A stretch of 64,000 nucleotides of DNA, taken from assembly GCF_014647475.1 (NCBI RefSeq), contig NZ_BMPG01000001.1:682001-746000 (forward strand), read 5' to 3'. How positions within the stretch are numbered: position 1 is the first letter of the stretch; the number at the start of each line of letters is the position of its first letter. The stretch is from Halocalculus aciditolerans (GTDB lineage: Archaea; Halobacteriota; Halobacteria; Halobacteriales; Halobacteriaceae). Of the stretch, positions 2,118 to 10,343 are shown in pieces. A program made the position numbers and the translations under genes. Below the pieces are notes generated by a model that was given only the letters and a program-made list of their open reading frames with translations, was not told the origin of the DNA and made no database searches.

Positions 2118-3398
2118 TTAATCGTCGTCCGCCGCGACGATCTCGTCCGGGGTCGTCCCCGGGAACGCGGACTCGTCCTCGAACTCGGGGTCGAAGAGGT
2201 CGAGCGCCGCGGCGATAGTCGCCCAGTCGTCCTCTTGGGCGGCGTCGCGGAGACTCTTGGTCGGCGCGGCGAGAATCTGGGAGACGAGGGCGTCGGCGAG
2301 CGATTCGACGACCTCGCGCTGCTCGTCCGTGATGCCGCCGCGCGCTTCGAGCTTGCTGAAGGCGGTGTCGAGCTCGCGGGACTTCAACTGGCCCGCGGAG
2401 GCGTACATCGCGCCGATGACCTCGTCCGCGCGCTTGCGCTTGTACTGCACGAGGAGGTTCTCGAACTCCTCGGTCACCATGTGATCGACGCGTTCGGCGG
2501 CCTCGCGGCGGCGTTCGCGCGTCGACGCCGTGACGTCCTCTAAGTCGTCGAGCGTCAACACCGTCGTCTCCTCGTCGAGCGCGGTCGCGACGTCGCGCGG
2601 CTGCCCGAGGTCGATGCAGACGGCGTCCCCGACCGGATGCGCCTCGGTGACGATCGGGTCGGTCGCGCCGGTCGCCGCGACGACGACCTCCGCGTCCGCC
2701 ACCGCGTCCCCGAGCGCGTCGAGGCCCACCGCGTCGGCCGACGCGTCGAGTTCGTCGACGACCCACGACGCGTGCTCGACGGTCCGGTTCGCGACCGTGA
2801 CGTGGCCGGCGTCGGCGGCGGCGAACGCCTTCGCCGCGAGCCGCCCCATCTCGCCCGCGCCGACGACGACGGCCGTCGACCCCGCGAGATCCCGGTAGTC
2901 GCCGGCGAGCTCGACCGCGGCGCTCCCGAGGCTCACGACGCCCTCGTTGATGCGCGTCTCCGTCCGCGCTCGCTCGCCGACGTGAATCGCCTTCGTCACG
3001 GCGTCCCGGAGGACGGGGCCGACGGCGTTCCGCGACGCCTCGAAGCCGTCGCGGACCTGGCCGAGCACCTGGTCCTCGCCGAGCACGACCGATTCGAGGC
3101 CGGCCGCGACGCGGAGGAGGTGGCGGAGCGCGCTCTCGTGGTCCATTTCGACGACGTGCTCGGCGTCGAGCGCGCGGTCGAGCGCGCTCCGGCCGGCCGC
3201 GTCCGTGCTCGCGACGACGTACGCCTCGACGCGGTGGCACGTCTGGAACGCGAACGCCTCCGTCACCCCCGGCTCCTCGCGGAGCGCGGCGGCGGCGCTC
3301 TCGACGTCGTCGAACCGCGCGGCCTCGATGTCCTCGATAGACGCGACGTCGTGGGAGACGCGAATACCCGCGACGACGCCAGTGTCTGTGTCCTTCAT
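2118..3398 (-). CDS. hemA: Glutamyl-tRNA reductase
   Basis: A 426-residue enzyme that reduces glutamyl-tRNA(Glu) to glutamate-1-semialdehyde, the first committed step of C5 tetrapyrrole synthesis. The nucleophilic cysteine is C54 in FQTCHRVEAY. The conserved GLESVVLGEDQVLGQV block is at about residues 100-115. The NADPH-binding glycine motif VVVGAGEMG is at 177-185, and the C-terminal dimerisation helices start near residue 300. I chose ATG 3398 (MKDTDTG...), because it starts 1 bp after the stop of the precorrin-2 dehydrogenase gene; the frame runs on upstream with no family similarity. It is the fourth gene of a heme operon. The length is normal for archaeal HemA. Confidence 0.95.
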   Translation of the reverse strand: MKDTDTGVVAGIRVSHDVASIEDIEAARFDDVESAAAALREEPGVTEAFAFQTCHRVEAYVVASTDAAGRSALDRALDAEHVVEMDHESALRHLLRVAAGLESVVLGEDQVLGQVRDGFEASRNAVGPVLRDAVTKAIHVGERARTETRINEGVVSLGSAAVELAGDYRDLAGSTAVVVGAGEMGRLAAKAFAAADAGHVTVANRTVEHASWVVDELDASADAVGLDALGDAVADAEVVVAATGATDPIVTEAHPVGDAVCIDLGQPRDVATALDEETTVLTLDDLEDVTASTRERRREAAERVDHMVTEEFENLLVQYKRKRADEVIGAMYASAGQLKSRELDTAFSKLEARGGITDEQREVVESLADALVSQILAAPTKSLRDAAQEDDWATIAAALDLFDPEFEDESAFPGTTPDEIVAADDD

Positions 3399-3399
3399 C

Positions 3400-4047
3400 T
3401 TACTCTGCGTCGCCGAGATGCGCGCGCACCACGGCGGCTGCTTCTCGACGTGGCTTCGCCGTCCCCGCACGTAAAGCCTTCCAAACCGGTGCCGACCGCA
3501 CGACCGCGCGCACCGCGTCCCGCCGCACGTCCGGCGCGACCCCACGGGCTTTCAGGTCCGCGCGAATCTCCCCCGTAATCGCCGCCATCTCGCCCGCGCC
3601 CTCGATATCCGCCTCGATCTGCTCGCGGAGGTGCTTCGCGAGCGCCGGACTCGCCCCGCCCGTCGTGATGGCGACCGACACTGGGTCGTCCTCGACGGTC
3701 GCCGGGACGACGACGCTCTTCCCGTCGCGACTCCCGGCGCGGTCCGCGCGATTCACGAGCGCGCCGCGCTCGCGCGCCACCGTCACGACCGCGTCGTTCA
3801 CCGCCGCGTCGTCAGTCGCCGCGACGGCGAGCAGCGGCTCGTAGGCGTCGAAGAACTCGAACACCGACTCCGTCGTCGGCTCCGCCTCCACGAGCGTGCT
3901 CTCCCCGAAGTCTTCGTCAGCGAACGCCGGACTGACGACGTAGACGTCCGCCTCCGCGGCGAACCGCCGCGCCTTTCGCGCGCCGACCCGACCGCCGCCG
4001 AACACCACGACCGTCTCGCCCGTGAAGTCGAACGCGAGCGGAATCAT
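3400..4047 (-). CDS. Precorrin-2 dehydrogenase / sirohydrochlorin ferrochelatase-type protein
   Basis: A 215-residue Met8p/CysG N-terminal-like protein. The NAD-binding Rossmann motif VVVFGGGRVGARKA occupies residues 13-26, and the later block SVAITTGGASPALAKHLR (about 127-144) is characteristic of the siroheme synthase dehydrogenase domain. It oxidises precorrin-2 to sirohydrochlorin and may also insert iron. It has no uroporphyrinogen methyltransferase domain, which must be encoded elsewhere. It sits between hemA (1 bp apart) and the siroheme decarboxylase gene (3 bp apart), which supports siroheme as a heme precursor here. Confidence 0.9.
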   Translation of the reverse strand: MIPLAFDFTGETVVVFGGGRVGARKARRFAAEADVYVVSPAFADEDFGESTLVEAEPTTESVFEFFDAYEPLLAVAATDDAAVNDAVVTVARERGALVNRADRAGSRDGKSVVVPATVEDDPVSVAITTGGASPALAKHLREQIEADIEGAGEMAAITGEIRADLKARGVAPDVRRDAVRAVVRSAPVWKALRAGTAKPRREAAAVVRAHLGDAE

Positions 4048-4050
4048 CCG

Positions 4051-5199
4051 CTACTCCGCCGTCCCCGCCGACTCGGAGGCGTCGGCGTTCTCGTCCGCTG
4101 CATCGCTCTCGTCCGCCACAGCGGTGTTCGCGTCCGCGCGCTCCGCCAGCCGAATTCCCGTCTTCTTCAGGATCCGCGTCGAGAAGAGCGTGTCCCAGTC
4201 GTCGTCGCCGACGTCCCAGTACTCGCTCATCACGTCTTTCACCTGCTGGACGCGCGCTTCGCTCTCCGCCTCGCTGCGGCCGTGCGTCATCGCGAAGAAG
4301 TTGTACGGCCACACGCCCTCGTGGCGCGGGCGCTCGTAGCAGTGCGTCACGAACTCCAGGCTCGCCACCGCGGGGCCGACGTCGTCGACGACGTCGTCCG
4401 GGACGTCCCAGACCGTCATCCCGTTCTCCGTGTAGCCGAGCTTGTAGTGGTTCGGCACCACGCCGATGCGTCGAATCTTCCCCTCGACGACGAACCGGCG
4501 GAGCGTCTCCAACACCCACTCGACGTCCGTTTCGAGCGTCTCCGCGACGTCCTCGTACGGCGTCAGCGTGAGCGGCAGCCCGTCCTGTACCTCCATGACG
4601 AGGTCGCGTTCGTCCGGCGTCAGCGACGTCCGCCCCGACGGGTCCGGGTTCGGGCCGAGCGCCGACAGGTCGACGTCCGCGTCCCGGAGCGGGCCGTCCA
4701 CGTAGAATTTCGCCTCCACGCGGAACTCCTGTTGCTTCGGCAGATTGTACGTTTCTTGCCCGGTCTCCGCCTCGATTTCGGCGAGCACCTCCTCGACGCG
4801 GTCAGCGTCGGCGACGGAGACCACGAACCACATGTTCAGGTAGGGGTGTTCGCGCTCGTAGTTGTGCGCGACCTCGTGATGCGCGTTCACGAGTTCCGCG
4901 ATCTCCTCGAACTCGTCCTCGGGCGCGTGCATCGCGACGAGCGTCGCGTGCCCGCCGATCTCTTCTGCGTTCACGAGCGGCCCGAACCGGGAGAGAACGC
5001 CCTCCTCGTCCAGCCGCGCGATGCGCTCTAAGAGCTCGTCCGGGTCGACGTCGACGCCGCGGTTCCGGAGCGTGTCCGCGGCCGCGCCGAACGGCCACCG
5101 AACCACGGGAAAACCGCCCTGAAAGGCGTTTACGATGGCTCTGTCACGGTCGTCGAGGTCGCCCGCAGTCATGTCTTGCGTTGTGTCAGCGGAACTCAT
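4051..5199 (-). CDS. ahbB: Siroheme decarboxylase, AhbA-AhbB-like fusion (Lrp/AsnC fold)
   Basis: A 382-residue protein with two tandem Lrp/AsnC-like halves, each a wHTH followed by a ferredoxin-like domain. The first half has a helix-turn-helix near residues 20-70 and the AhbA-like stretch HNYEREHPYLNMWFVVSV (about 111-128). The second half has its own helix-turn-helix near 195-245 and the AhbB-like blocks THCYERPR and WPYNFFAMTHG, then LFSTRILKKTGIRL. AhbA/AhbB convert siroheme to 12,18-didecarboxysiroheme in the alternative heme pathway. The tail from about residue 350 is acidic and low-complexity. The gene lies between the DUF5778-like gene and precorrin-2 dehydrogenase, with gaps of 12 and 3 bp. 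A pure regulator is less likely given this context. Confidence 0.88.
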   Translation of the reverse strand: MSSADTTQDMTAGDLDDRDRAIVNAFQGGFPVVRWPFGAAADTLRNRGVDVDPDELLERIARLDEEGVLSRFGPLVNAEEIGGHATLVAMHAPEDEFEEIAELVNAHHEVAHNYEREHPYLNMWFVVSVADADRVEEVLAEIEAETGQETYNLPKQQEFRVEAKFYVDGPLRDADVDLSALGPNPDPSGRTSLTPDERDLVMEVQDGLPLTLTPYEDVAETLETDVEWVLETLRRFVVEGKIRRIGVVPNHYKLGYTENGMTVWDVPDDVVDDVGPAVASLEFVTHCYERPRHEGVWPYNFFAMTHGRSEAESEARVQQVKDVMSEYWDVGDDDWDTLFSTRILKKTGIRLAERADANTAVADESDAADENADASESAGTAE

Positions 5200-5726: not shown

Positions 5727-6641
5727 ATGCGTGCGTGGCTCGCCCGCCGATTCGACGCCGCCTACGAGCGCGTGCTCCGGCACGAAATCTCCGGCGCACC
5801 GAGTCACGTCGCCGTCATCCAGGACGGAAACCGCCGATACGCCCGTAAACACGGCCAGGACGCGAGCGACGGCCACGAAGCCGGCGCGGAAACCACCGAA
5901 CGCGTCCTCCAGTGGTGCGCCGACATCGGCGTCGACGAACTCACCCTCTACGCCTTCTCCACCGAGAACTTCGACCGCCCGCCCGAAGAACGCGACCGCC
6001 TCTTCGACCTCCTCGAAGAGAAACTCTACGCGTTCGCCGACCGCGACCGCATCCACGACGAAGGCGTCCGCATCCGCGCCATCGGCGAAACCCACCGACT
6101 CCCCCCGCGCGTCCGCGACGCCATCGACTACGCCGAACGCCGCACCCGCGACTACGACCAGTTCACCCTCAACGTCGCCGTCGCCTACGGCGGCCGCGCC
6201 GAGTTACTGGGAGCGGCCCGCGACGTCGCCCGCGCCGTCGACACCGGCGACCTCGACCCCAGCGACGTCGACGTCGACGCCGTCGACGCCCGCCTCCACG
6301 ACGACCCCGTCCGCGACGTCGACCTCATCATCCGGACCGGCGGCGACGAACGCACCTCCAACTTCCTCCCCTGGCACGCCAACGGCAACGAAGCCGCCGT
6401 CTACTTCTGCACGCCCTACTGGCCGGAGTTCTCCCGGATCGACTTCCTCCGCGCCGTCCGCACCTACGAATCCCGCGAGGAATCCTGGCGGCGCGCCCGC
6501 GCCGAACGCGCCCTCGCCCTCCTCTCCGCCCTCGGCGGCGTCGAACTCCGCGAAGCCCGCAGCGTCCTCGACCGCTTCCGCGACCACGCCCCCGATGGCG
6601 TCGACGTCGACGACGACACTCCCACCGCGACGAGCGACTAA
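5727..6641 (+). CDS. uppS: Cis-prenyltransferase (undecaprenyl/dolichyl diphosphate synthase family), catalytic-type paralogue
   Basis: A 304-residue enzyme for chain elongation of isoprenoid diphosphates, in archaea supplying dolichol-type carriers. The catalytic aspartate D33 lies in VIQDGNRRYARKHG. LYAFSTENF (region III) and AYGGR follow, and region V reads DLIIRTGGDERTSNFLPW. The C-terminus ESREESWRRARAERALALL lacks the RxG ending seen in homomeric enzymes, and the tail is about 50 residues longer than usual. A second, complementary paralogue lies 1.2 kb downstream on the other strand. ATG 5727 is followed at once by family sequence. The 3' end overlaps the next, convergent gene by 4 bp. 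Confidence 0.92.
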   Translation: MRAWLARRFDAAYERVLRHEISGAPSHVAVIQDGNRRYARKHGQDASDGHEAGAETTERVLQWCADIGVDELTLYAFSTENFDRPPEERDRLFDLLEEKLYAFADRDRIHDEGVRIRAIGETHRLPPRVRDAIDYAERRTRDYDQFTLNVAVAYGGRAELLGAARDVARAVDTGDLDPSDVDVDAVDARLHDDPVRDVDLIIRTGGDERTSNFLPWHANGNEAAVYFCTPYWPEFSRIDFLRAVRTYESREESWRRARAERALALLSALGGVELREARSVLDRFRDHAPDGVDVDDDTPTATSD

Positions 6642-7273
6642 CCCGATTCTCCGCGTTGCAGGCGACTGATGGCGAGCCACGCCGCAGCACCGACGACGAG
6701 ACACGCACCGCCGACGACGCTCGCGGTCCGCCACACGTCCGCGAACCAGTGGAACGCGCCGGCGGCGTTCAGGACGACGAGCGTCGCGACGACCGCGACG
6801 ACGACTGCCGGCGCGACCGCGTTCTCACGCCGGTACGCCCACGCACCGACGCCGGCGAACGCCGCGCCAATCAGGACCGGCACGGCGACGCCGAGCGCGT
6901 CGAAGAACCCCCAGCGATCGTAGGTCGCGTACACCTGGTAGTACGTCCCGCTCTTCTCGACGAAGTAGTACCCGTGCCCCATGGACAGGTGGTCACCCCG
7001 ATACTCGAAATCCGGCGGCGCGCTCCCCTCCCCGTACACCACCGAGGCGTTGTCCGCGTCGGCGAGTGCGCGGTCGAACAGCTGTTGCCCGCGCTCGGAG
7101 AGGTTCCCGTAGGCGAGCACGGCGTCATCCGGCGCGTCCGGTCCTGGGTCTCCTGAACCCGCGACGTAGAGGCTGTACTCGGTCGCGCCGCCGTGCGTTG
7201 ACGCCACGGCCTGCCCCGCGACAACCATTCCGAAGACCACGAGGAGGAGCGCGGGAACCTGCCAGCGGTTCAT
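6638..7273 (-). CDS. Haloarchaeal membrane protein of unknown function
   Basis: A 211-residue protein. An N-terminal hydrophobic segment (about residues 5-24, signal peptide or anchor) precedes an extracytoplasmic domain (about 25-120) containing VLAYGNLSERGQQLFDRAL and a Tyr-rich part GHGYYFVEKSGTYYQVYATY. Three hydrophobic segments then lie near 128-148, 155-172 and 182-202. The NLS-type helix followed by a Tyr-rich strand resembles small uncharacterised domains found in haloarchaeal membrane proteins. It overlaps the 3' end of uppS by 4 bp in convergent orientation, so transcription from either gene runs into the other. No function can be assigned. Confidence 0.8.
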   Translation of the reverse strand: MNRWQVPALLLVVFGMVVAGQAVASTHGGATEYSLYVAGSGDPGPDAPDDAVLAYGNLSERGQQLFDRALADADNASVVYGEGSAPPDFEYRGDHLSMGHGYYFVEKSGTYYQVYATYDRWGFFDALGVAVPVLIGAAFAGVGAWAYRRENAVAPAVVVAVVATLVVLNAAGAFHWFADVWRTASVVGGACLVVGAAAWLAISRLQRGESG

Positions 7274-7345
7274 ACCCGTCGGTCACGACGACGTATCAAA
7301 TGTCTTCTGAACGAAACGAACGCGAGTGTTCGACGGAAACGACCG

Positions 7346-7606
7346 CTACTCGTACGTCTCTTCGAGGTACTCCACGATGTCGTCACTCTCGTACATCGTG
7401 ACCTCGTTCTCCGTGTCCACGAGGTAGGGAACCATGTCCTCGCCGCCGGCCTTCAGCTCCTCGTACGTCACTTCGTTCGTGACGTCGCCGCCCATCCCGC
7501 CCGGCAGGCGGGGGTTGTGGATGACGTAGGACACGCCGAGCTCCGAGAGCTTCTCCCGGACCTTCGCGCAGTGCGGACAGCCCTCCGACTGGTAGAGTTC
7601 GAGCAT
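7346..7606 (-). CDS. Glutaredoxin / GST-N-like thioredoxin-fold protein
   Basis: An 86-residue single thioredoxin-fold protein. The redox motif CPHC lies near residues 10-13 (LYQSEGCPHCAKVREKL). The cis-proline segment DMVPYLVD is at about 56-63, and DDIVEYLEETY forms the last helix, as in glutaredoxins and GST N-terminal domains. Haloarchaea use gamma-glutamylcysteine rather than glutathione, so the reductant is probably bis-gamma-glutamylcystine or a thioredoxin system. I chose ATG 7606; a GTG one codon earlier (7609) is also possible. It appears monocistronic. Confidence 0.88.
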   Translation of the reverse strand: MLELYQSEGCPHCAKVREKLSELGVSYVIHNPRLPGGMGGDVTNEVTYEELKAGGEDMVPYLVDTENEVTMYESDDIVEYLEETYE

Positions 7607-7807
7607 CACCAGCGAGTACGACCGTCGACGGCGTAAAAGCCCCTGAAGCGGCAGCGAACGCGTCTTCTACGCCCGTCGTCGCTTCGCGCGCAGTGAACTA
7701 CACGCGAATCGGTGGTTCGCGTTCTCCGCACTCGCCTCCGGCCCGTGCGGACTACCGCGAGACGACGGGAGAGTCGCTCCGCGACTCACCCGCTGCGACT
7801 CGCGTCA

Positions 7808-7846
7808 TTCGGCAGATTCGGTCGCTTCGCTCCCTCACCTGCCGAA
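7808..7846 (-). repeat. 3'-terminal stem-loop spanning the stop codon of cis-prenyltransferase 2
   Basis: On the minus strand the last codons TTCGGCAG pair perfectly with CTGCCGAA 23 nt further on, giving an 8-bp outer stem and a 39-nt element. The loop contains GGGAGCGAAGCGACC. The element has the same length and layout as stem-loops after the stops at 46572 and 61745, but with a different outer stem. There is no T-run, so it is not a classical terminator. Confidence 0.6.
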
Positions 7847-8443
7847 CCGACGCTGCCGGTTCTGGTACTCCTGCACCGCGCGGAGGTAGTCGCGTTCGCG
7901 GAAGTCCCGCCAGTTGACGTCGGTGAAGTACAGCTCGGAGTAGACGGACTGCCAGATCATGAAGTCGGAGAGGCGTTCCGCGCCGGTCTTGACGACGAGG
8001 TCGGGGTCGGCGGGGAAGAGGAGGGAGTCCTCGATGTCTTCTTCGGTTATCTCGTCGGGGTCGAGGTCGTCGTCGGCGACGCGTTCGGCGACGCCGCGGA
8101 CGGCGGTGGCGAACTCGTGTTTCCCGCCGAGGCCGACGCCGACGCGGATGGGGGCGTCGGCGGGTTCGGTGTCGTCGGGGCCGCGGACGGCGAGGCTTCG
8201 GGGGGCGTCGAGGTCGGCGAGCTCGCGTTCGAGCGTGGGGACGGCGGCTTCGTCGAGGACGCTGACGTAGACGGTGACGCGCTCTGCGCCGTACTCGAAC
8301 GCCCAGTCGAAGAAGGCTTCGAGGGTGTCGTACGCGCCTTTCTCGAGGAGGTCGCGTTCGGTGATGACGAGGGCGACGTGCGCGGGCGGCGGTGCCGAGT
8401 CACGGCGGACGCGGAGGGCGAGGTAGCGGTCGTAGAGTCCCAC
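7835..8443 (-). CDS. Cis-prenyltransferase family paralogue lacking the catalytic Asp (possible partner subunit)
   Basis: A 202-residue member of the undecaprenyl diphosphate synthase family. Region V is recognisable (DPDLVVKTGAERLSDFMIW, then YSELYFTDVNWRDF), and the C-terminus NRQRRFGR has the RxG ending of homomeric enzymes. The DGN catalytic motif and the FSTEN motif are absent: the corresponding parts read HVALVITERDLLEKG and VTVYVSVLDE. The start is GTG 8443 (VGLYDRYLALRVR); in-frame codons further upstream look like promoter DNA. The divergent gene mobB starts 88 bp away. It may be the non-catalytic subunit of a heteromeric cis-prenyltransferase, as NgBR is to DHDDS in eukaryotes; that is inference. 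Confidence 0.85.
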   Translation of the reverse strand: MGLYDRYLALRVRRDSAPPPAHVALVITERDLLEKGAYDTLEAFFDWAFEYGAERVTVYVSVLDEAAVPTLERELADLDAPRSLAVRGPDDTEPADAPIRVGVGLGGKHEFATAVRGVAERVADDDLDPDEITEEDIEDSLLFPADPDLVVKTGAERLSDFMIWQSVYSELYFTDVNWRDFRERDYLRAVQEYQNRQRRFGR

Positions 8444-8531: not shown

Positions 8532-8996
8532 ATGAAGGTCGTCAGTATCGTCGGTGTGAGCGACGCGGGGAAGACGACGCTCGTCGAACGCCTCGTGCCA
8601 ATCTTCGCGGAGCGCGGGCGGGTGGGGACGGTGAAGTCGATGCATCACGACTTCGAACTCGACGAGGAAGGCAAAGACACGCATCGCCACCGGACGGCGG
8701 GCGCGGCGCGCGTCGTCGGCGTCACGCCGTCGCTCACGGCGACGTTCGAGCCGCGGGGCCGCGACGACTACGAGGACGCGGACGCCGCGCTCGACGCGCT
8801 CCTCGACGGCTTCGAGGGGTTCGACGTCGTGCTCGTCGAGGGGTTCCGGGAGGCTGACACGCCGAACGTGCTCGTCGGCGACCAGCGCGAACGCGCCCTC
8901 GCCGGCGACGTCGTCGCCACCGTTTCGGACGGGACGGCGGACGACGTCGACCTCGTCGGCCTCCGCGACCGCGTCCTCGACCTCCCCGACTACTGA
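8532..8996 (+). CDS. mobB: Molybdopterin-guanine dinucleotide biosynthesis protein MobB
   Basis: A 154-residue P-loop GTP-binding protein. Walker A is VSIVGVSDAGKTTLVERL (residues 4-21). The block KSMHHDFELDEEGKDTHRHR (about 37-56) is the MobB-specific D/H-rich motif, and DVVLVEGFRE is Walker B-like. MobB assists attachment of GMP to molybdopterin during MGD cofactor assembly. The start is ATG 8532, 9 codons inside a longer frame whose first residues do not match the family. It is divergent from cis-prenyltransferase 2 and 51 bp upstream of the DUF92 gene on the same strand. Confidence 0.92.
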   Translation: MKVVSIVGVSDAGKTTLVERLVPIFAERGRVGTVKSMHHDFELDEEGKDTHRHRTAGAARVVGVTPSLTATFEPRGRDDYEDADAALDALLDGFEGFDVVLVEGFREADTPNVLVGDQRERALAGDVVATVSDGTADDVDLVGLRDRVLDLPDY

Positions 8997-9020: not shown

Positions 9021-9047
9021 GTGCGGGCGAGCGGAACCCTCGATACT

Positions 9048-10343
9048 GTGAATCGGCCGCTCCGACGCGCCGGCGCGTACGCACTCCTCTCCCTCCTCGC
9101 GCTCGCCGCGCCCACGCTGGGCCGGCTGGCCGCCGTGCCGTTCGCCGCCGTCGCCGTCGCCGCCTACTTCGTCACCGACGGCCGCGCCTTCGACCTCTTC
9201 GCCTACCCCTGGGACGAACGCGCCGGCCGCCTCGAAACCCTCCTCGGCTTCTCCCTCGCCGCCACCGGCCTCAGCGTCGTCTACAGCGTCGGGAGCTTCG
9301 ACCTCCCGCTCGCCGTCTACGTCGCCACCCTCCTCGCCGTCGGCTTCGGCGACCTCGGCCGCGTCCTCGCCCTCGACTCCGTCGAGGACGAAGCCGCCGG
9401 CGCGGCCGGCTTCGGCGTCCTCGGGTTCGCCGCCGCCACCGCCGGCCAGCTCGCCGTCGCCCAGTCGCGCCCGGCCATCGCCGTCTTCCTCGCCGCGAGC
9501 GGCGTCCTCCTCGCCGCCCTCCTCCGCTCCGTCTTCACCGAGAAAGACGACCCGCTCGTCATCCTCTCCGTCGCCCTCCTCCTCTGGCTCTTCGCCGACC
9601 TCCACCCCGACGTCGGCGCGGTCCGCGTGGGCGTCGCCATCGCCGCCACCGTCGTCTTCGGCTACCTCTCCTACGCCACCGGCGCGGCCTCAGTAGCAGG
9701 AATGCTCACCGGCGTCTTCCTCGGCCTCTTAGCCGTCGTCCTCGGCGGCTACGGCTGGTTCGTCGTCCTCATGGCGTTCTTCGGCGTCGGCGGCCTCTCC
9801 ACGAAGTTCCGCTACGACGAGAAGACCGACCGGGGCGTCGCCGAGGGGAACTCGGGCGCGCGCGGCACCGGGAACGTCCTCGGGAACTCCGCCGCCGCCC
9901 TCGCCGCGCTCTTACTCTACGCCGCCAGCCCCGGCCTCCCCGTTCCCTCGGACGTCTTCCTCTTCGCGTTCGCCGCCTCCGTCGCCACCGCGCTCGCCGA
10001 CACGCTCTCCAGCGAAATCGGCGGCCTCTACGGGCCGCCCCGCCTCATCACCACGCTCGAACCCGTCGACCCCGGCACCGACGGCGCGGTCACCTGGCAG
10101 GGCGAACTCGCCGGCCTCGCCGGCGCGGCGCTCATCGCGCTCCTCGCGCTCGCCCTCACCCCGCTCGACGCCGTCGACGCCGTCGTCGTCCTCGTCGGCG
10201 GCATCGCCGGCATGACGATGGACAGCCTCGCCGGCGCGACCATCGAAGGCGACCGCCTCGGCAACCAGTCAGTGAACTTCCTCGCCACCCTCACGGGCGG
10301 CGTCGCCGGCGGTCTGCTCGCGCTCGCCTTCGGCCTCGCGTAA
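9048..10343 (+). CDS. DUF92 family integral membrane protein (VTE6 / phytyl-phosphate kinase-like)
   Basis: A 431-residue multispanning membrane protein with at least ten hydrophobic segments. The DUF92 core is visible: GGLSTKFRYDEKTDRGVAEG, then NSGARGTGNVLGNS, and later ALADTLSSEIGGLYG with its conserved D/E, and GGIAGMTMDSLAGATIEG. Plant VTE6, a phytyl-phosphate kinase, belongs to this family, so a role in phosphorylating isoprenoid phosphates is plausible but not shown for archaea. I chose GTG 9048 because a TATA-like box lies about 30 bp upstream. The neighbouring cis-prenyltransferases make polyprenyl metabolism an attractive context. Confidence 0.88.
   Translation: MNRPLRRAGAYALLSLLALAAPTLGRLAAVPFAAVAVAAYFVTDGRAFDLFAYPWDERAGRLETLLGFSLAATGLSVVYSVGSFDLPLAVYVATLLAVGFGDLGRVLALDSVEDEAAGAAGFGVLGFAAATAGQLAVAQSRPAIAVFLAASGVLLAALLRSVFTEKDDPLVILSVALLLWLFADLHPDVGAVRVGVAIAATVVFGYLSYATGAASVAGMLTGVFLGLLAVVLGGYGWFVVLMAFFGVGGLSTKFRYDEKTDRGVAEGNSGARGTGNVLGNSAAALAALLLYAASPGLPVPSDVFLFAFAASVATALADTLSSEIGGLYGPPRLITTLEPVDPGTDGAVTWQGELAGLAGAALIALLALALTPLDAVDAVVVLVGGIAGMTMDSLAGATIEGDRLGNQSVNFLATLTGGVAGGLLALAFGLA

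Follow-up and report, generated by a model that had tools for sequence, protein, structure and literature searches.

Two cis-prenyltransferase paralogs of a haloarchaeon that very probably form one polyprenyl diphosphate synthase

Described archaeal enzymes and the window pair

In Methanosarcina mazei, MM_0618 and MM_1083 are described as a heteromeric cis-prenyltransferase (cPT) (Emi et al. 2019, BBRC 520:291; as cited in PMC8131916 and PMC8904820). A third M. mazei homolog, MM_0014, ends in TLGG and is active alone without the RxG motif. Another archaeal heteromeric cPT, consisting of Af1219 and Af0707 of Archaeoglobus fulgidus, reportedly needs both subunits (Sompiyachoke et al., J Biochem 2022).

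The window analyzed here, a stretch of 64,000 nucleotides from Halocalculus aciditolerans, contains two genes of this kind, whose products are referred to as A and B (Table 1) and are the only PF01255 proteins that the profile search found in the whole genome. In genomes of the Methanosarcinaceae, one A and one B were found, accompanied in some by a third copy of the MM_0014 type (matching PDB 7caq). Because the Methanosarcinaceae carry one A and one B besides this copy, MM_0618 and MM_1083 should be the orthologs of A and B, an assignment made by elimination of MM_0014, and for the same reason the window pair is the apparent haloarchaeal ortholog of the M. mazei pair. In a maximum likelihood tree, the A sequences formed one clade that included the A of Methanosarcina spelaei (100/94), and the B sequences grouped with the M. 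spelaei B. The published M. mazei heteromer rules out a new type of archaeal enzyme. What is added here is a haloarchaeal representative of this known kind of heteromeric cPT and the widening of the kind to a phylum-wide rule; no description of the haloarchaeal A/B pair was found in the literature searched.

Table 1. Features of the A/B locus (positions in the window; residue numbers are those of the protein named)
Feature	Position	Strand	Basis
A, catalytic cis-prenyltransferase subunit, DHDDS/Rer2-like, without RxG, 304 aa	5727..6641	+	ORF and PF01255
DGNRR (A 33-37), catalytic Asp and phosphate-binding motif	5823..5837	+	present in 140/140 A
FSTEN (A 77-81)	5955..5969	+	S71 and N74 (E. coli numbering) in 140/140 A
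RTGGDERTSNF (A 203-213), IPP-site region	6333..6365	+	R194, R200, S202 and N203 in 140/140 A
S253-W254-R255 of A, RxG-equivalent place, motif absent	6483..6491	+	alignment columns of E. coli 242-244
B, non-catalytic NgBR/Nus1-like subunit, 202 aa, GTG start	7835..8443	-	PF01255; B search of haloarchaeal genomes
TERDL (B 28-32), at the place of DGNGR	8348..8362	-	alignment columns 26-43
KTGAERLSDF (B 152-161), kept C-terminal half of the fold	7961..7990	-	alignment
R-F-G (B 199-201), RxG motif, then one residue and stop	7841..7849	-	C-terminal end
DUF92 membrane protein, divergent from B, probable pathway partner	9021..10343	+	PF01940, E 9e-56

Division of the motifs between A and B

The first-pass annotation had described A as a 304-aa protein with the DGN and FSTEN motifs and without RxG, and B as a 202-aa protein that lacks both N-terminal motifs, keeps TGAERLSDF and ends in QRRFGR, and both descriptions held when the proteins were compared with profiles and aligned with their homologs. 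A matched the full length of the PF01255 profile (1-216, E 3e-69; 232.7 bits, above the curated cutoff of 27 bits) and scored 240.7 bits against TIGR00055 uppS (cutoff 109.55). B matched the C-terminal half of the PF01255 profile only (116-219, E 2e-25; 94.8 bits, above the same cutoff). In B, the stretch after TERDL, including the equivalents of Arg39 and His43, is deleted, and the C-terminus reads ...NRQRRFGR; in the columns of E. coli UppS 239-245, A has REESWRR and B has RQRRFGR. Neither protein therefore has the complete set of residues of a homodimeric UppS: RxG is missing from A at the aligned columns, and B is without D26, N28, R30, S71, N74, and R77. The frame of B is also open as a 232-aa form from an ATG at 8533. 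We preferred the 202-aa form from the GTG at 8443, because the longer one overlaps the start of the divergent MobB gene (ATG at 8532), and because the alignment of most homologs begins only near residue 28 of the longer form, the extra residues being unconserved.

The same division was found when 140 A and 137 B sequences of one phylum were aligned and numbered after E. coli UppS. D26, G27, N28, R30, S71, N74, and R77 were all present in every A, whereas neither DGN nor R77 occurred in any of the 137 B, and S71 and N74 occurred in three B each. Conversely, R/K242-x-G244 was found in 137/137 B and 0/140 A, and [RK]xG followed by exactly one residue formed the end of every B. Even strongly reduced B proteins of 164-168 aa (family f19, about 165 aa), which are barely recognizable otherwise, still end in RERRFGR or RDRRFGA. 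In 41 of the 140 A, the tail has an RxG string at some other place; these strings are non-homologous and were discarded, since none lies at the homologous columns. As the tail is kept in all B, even in the reduced ones, it is under selection in its own right, and since the same split is seen in 140 A and 137 B, chance is excluded. As judged from these alignments, the A/B split is an old, phylum-wide trait that is not peculiar to one genome; a haloarchaeal invention is ruled out, as the whole phylum carries it.

The lack of RxG in A is not decisive by itself, because MM_0014 is active without RxG and without a partner and because yeast Nus1 has Asn for the Arg of the motif. A could thus be a self-sufficient homodimer in which another segment, comparable to the TLGG of MM_0014, closes the active site in place of RxG, while B serves as a regulator or membrane adaptor with its RxG as baggage; DHDDS homodimers also show some activity. 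However, no fixed replacement was found across the phylum at the RxG-homologous columns of the 140 aligned A, RxG persists in all B, always equally far from the C-terminus, although much of B has eroded, and the M. mazei orthologs work as a heteromer. We therefore consider a self-sufficient A very improbable and favor a heteromer of A and B.

For A, the top Foldseek match of the AF2 model (pLDDT 86) was human DHDDS (7pax_A, 300 columns), and DSSP analysis of the model predicted a C-terminal helix-turn-helix (helices 237-268 and 271-285) spanning and following S253-W254-R255. The A proteins of families f13, f14, f20, and f22 stop short of this element. The model of B (pLDDT 85.9) has a cis-prenyltransferase fold; NgBR was absent among the best 50 Foldseek hits of this model, and the solved structures nearest to B by sequence are bacterial UppS rather than NgBR. 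In the single-chain models, confidence falls near the aligned SNFLPWHANGNE / SDFMIWQSVYSE segment in both monomers, and the tail of B shows a further drop, which may hint at a partner at these places.

Gene arrangement and co-occurrence of A and B

The A and B genes are mostly linked in haloarchaea, whereas they are far apart in the Methanosarcinaceae genomes that were read. The distance between them is less than 10 kb in about 112 of 140 haloarchaeal genomes, and they are far apart in about 28. All 80 linked haloarchaeal loci that were fetched have the two genes in convergent orientation, with gaps of 0 to 4.4 kb. Convergent pairing also recurs in ten other families (f11, f13, f16, f20, f21, f22, f24, f27, f28, and f29) and is therefore probably ancestral. 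Between A and B, the window has genes for a small membrane protein (6638-7273, minus strand) and a glutaredoxin-like protein (7346-7609, minus strand); of 39 further haloarchaeal loci examined, only one has them. On the opposite side of A, genes for HemA, a precorrin-2 dehydrogenase-like protein and an AhbA/B-like protein occupy 2118-5199 on the minus strand, the latter two being kept as neighbors of A in 20/39 haloarchaeal loci.

The profile search gave two PF01255 matches for nearly every one of 145 haloarchaeal genomes, and the B query was matched in all 141 haloarchaeal genomes searched. The rest of the phylum was covered by 101 genomes, of which 94 carry A together with B, six have neither and one has A only. 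The genomes without both are all five of family f17 and the incomplete G207; the f17 genomes (G151, G160, G169, G178, and G185) are 75-91% complete. In G229, A is present and B was not found. In G071, B is present and A was not found in the 120-contig assembly, probably due to an assembly gap. Four genomes (G060, G067, G097, and G104) have two A copies and a single B; their second A copies (L313-L316) have complete DGN and STEN motifs and are without a terminal RxG. One haloarchaeon (G002) has a third PF01255 protein (L317, at G002:C1:478000-480500), a 529-aa open frame that has neither DGN nor STEN and ends in RRNEGR.

On the side of B away from A, a DUF92 (PF01940) gene adjoins B divergently in 37/39 haloarchaeal loci, and it also lies beside B in Methanoperedens and Methanothrix. 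The link between DUF92 (arCOG02245) and uppS (HVO_2318) has already been published, together with a Sec59-like N-terminal domain in some arCOG02245 members, from which a kinase reaction within the isoprenoid pathway was suggested (Makarova 2015; PMC5898192). No Pfam family was assigned to the N-terminal half of the DUF92 protein of the window; the protein is a candidate for a kinase in the pathway of the polyprenyl carrier.

There are genomes in which B lies apart from A and adjoins DUF92. This could be expected if B were an inactive paralog with a separate role, such as binding polyprenyl phosphate or serving another enzyme, and if the true partner of A were something else. Against this, A and B are near-universally present together and jointly absent, their convergent pairing is conserved, and B carries the very active-site tail motif that is missing from A. 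A separate role of B thus seems highly improbable, even less probable than a self-sufficient A.

The proposed heteromer and its relation to DHDDS/NgBR

Our main reading, to which we give a probability of about 0.9, is that A and B form one heteromeric polyprenyl diphosphate synthase in which the tail of B completes the active site of A. The first-pass annotation had arrived at the same heteromer; the motifs, the co-occurrence and joint absence, the gene arrangement and the M. mazei precedent make it the best-supported reading, whereas the missing RxG, taken alone, does not carry it. For A and B of the window, we infer a physical interaction, a tail placement, a product and a function as follows. 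B would be a catalytically dead paralog that pairs with A via the usual dimer face, and its tail, RRFGR-COOH, would cross the interface into the active site of A. The residues of DGNRR, FSTEN, and RTGG..R.SNF in A would hold the allylic diphosphate, Mg2+ and IPP, while the Arg and Gly of the tail, probably with the terminal carboxylate, would organize Mg2+ and the phosphates of IPP, the role that NgBR plays for DHDDS. The polyprenyl diphosphate made in this way would be the precursor from which the archaeal dolichyl-type sugar carrier derives.

In the crystal structure of human DHDDS/NgBR, the C-terminus of NgBR crosses the dimer interface, and phosphate is bound by the backbone nitrogens of NgBR L291 and G292. 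G292 also touches N82 and R85 of DHDDS, K293 reaches R37 and R85 through its carboxylate, and R290 can stand in for Mg2+ (PMC7573591). The residues of A that correspond to the DHDDS receptor residues R37, N82, and R85, namely R36, N81, and R84, are invariant in 140/140 A. It has also been reported that the C-terminal helix-turn-helix of DHDDS drives tetramerization and does not allow a productive homodimer to form (PMC7573591).

Since the split is old and phylum-wide, the origin of DHDDS/NgBR becomes a testable question. In the tree, which comprised A, B, bacterial UppS, DHDDS, NgBR, and Nus1, DHDDS was sister to the A clade (94/84) and NgBR/Nus1 went with B (97/100), NgBR and Nus1 being long branches. 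The maximum likelihood tree thus favors descent of the eukaryotic pair from the archaeal one, but the AU test does not settle it. Neither of two constrained trees was rejected, one with the three eukaryotic rows together (p-AU 0.26) and one with archaea-only A+B (p-AU 0.21). The N-terminal half of NgBR scored 18-21 bits with the B profile versus 5-6 with the A profile, whereas its C-terminal half scored 32 bits with the A profile versus 24 with the B profile, so that these scores point both ways as to a common origin of NgBR with B. That both subunits of eukaryotic DHDDS/NgBR and Rer2/Nus1 came together from an archaeal ancestor already split into A and B, rather than being reinvented, is therefore a tentative proposal that we consider somewhat doubtful.

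In Haloferax and Halobacterium, model organisms whose N-glycosylation is studied genetically, both genes have matches only to generic families of undecaprenyl diphosphate synthases, and the product of one is without catalytic residues. The proposed enzyme would unite them as the two subunits of a defined polyprenyl diphosphate synthase.

Compared with the known systems, the homodimeric E. coli UppS shares its fold and catalytic residues with A and its RxG with B, and it has in one chain the two halves that are split in A/B. As to the A. fulgidus pair, the A of family f14, probably Archaeoglobi, lacks the C-terminal extension. Like MM_0618 and MM_1083, A and B are two PF01255 paralogs within the same phylum that would make up one enzyme; the window pair differs in being halophilic. 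As in A/B, the catalytic subunits of DHDDS/NgBR and Rer2/Nus1 are without RxG and the dead subunits end in RxGx, and a helix-turn-helix after the catalytic domain, as in DHDDS, is predicted for the A of the window, though not shared by the A of families f13, f14, f20, and f22. Unlike these dead subunits, B, as read from its sequence, has no membrane anchor at its N-terminus, since the 202 aa start straight at the domain (MGLYDRY...), and its C-terminal half has remained more like that of UppS. The B-type end matches those of NgBR (RLGK) and Nus1 (NVGK, with Asn in place of the Arg) in extending exactly one residue past the motif.
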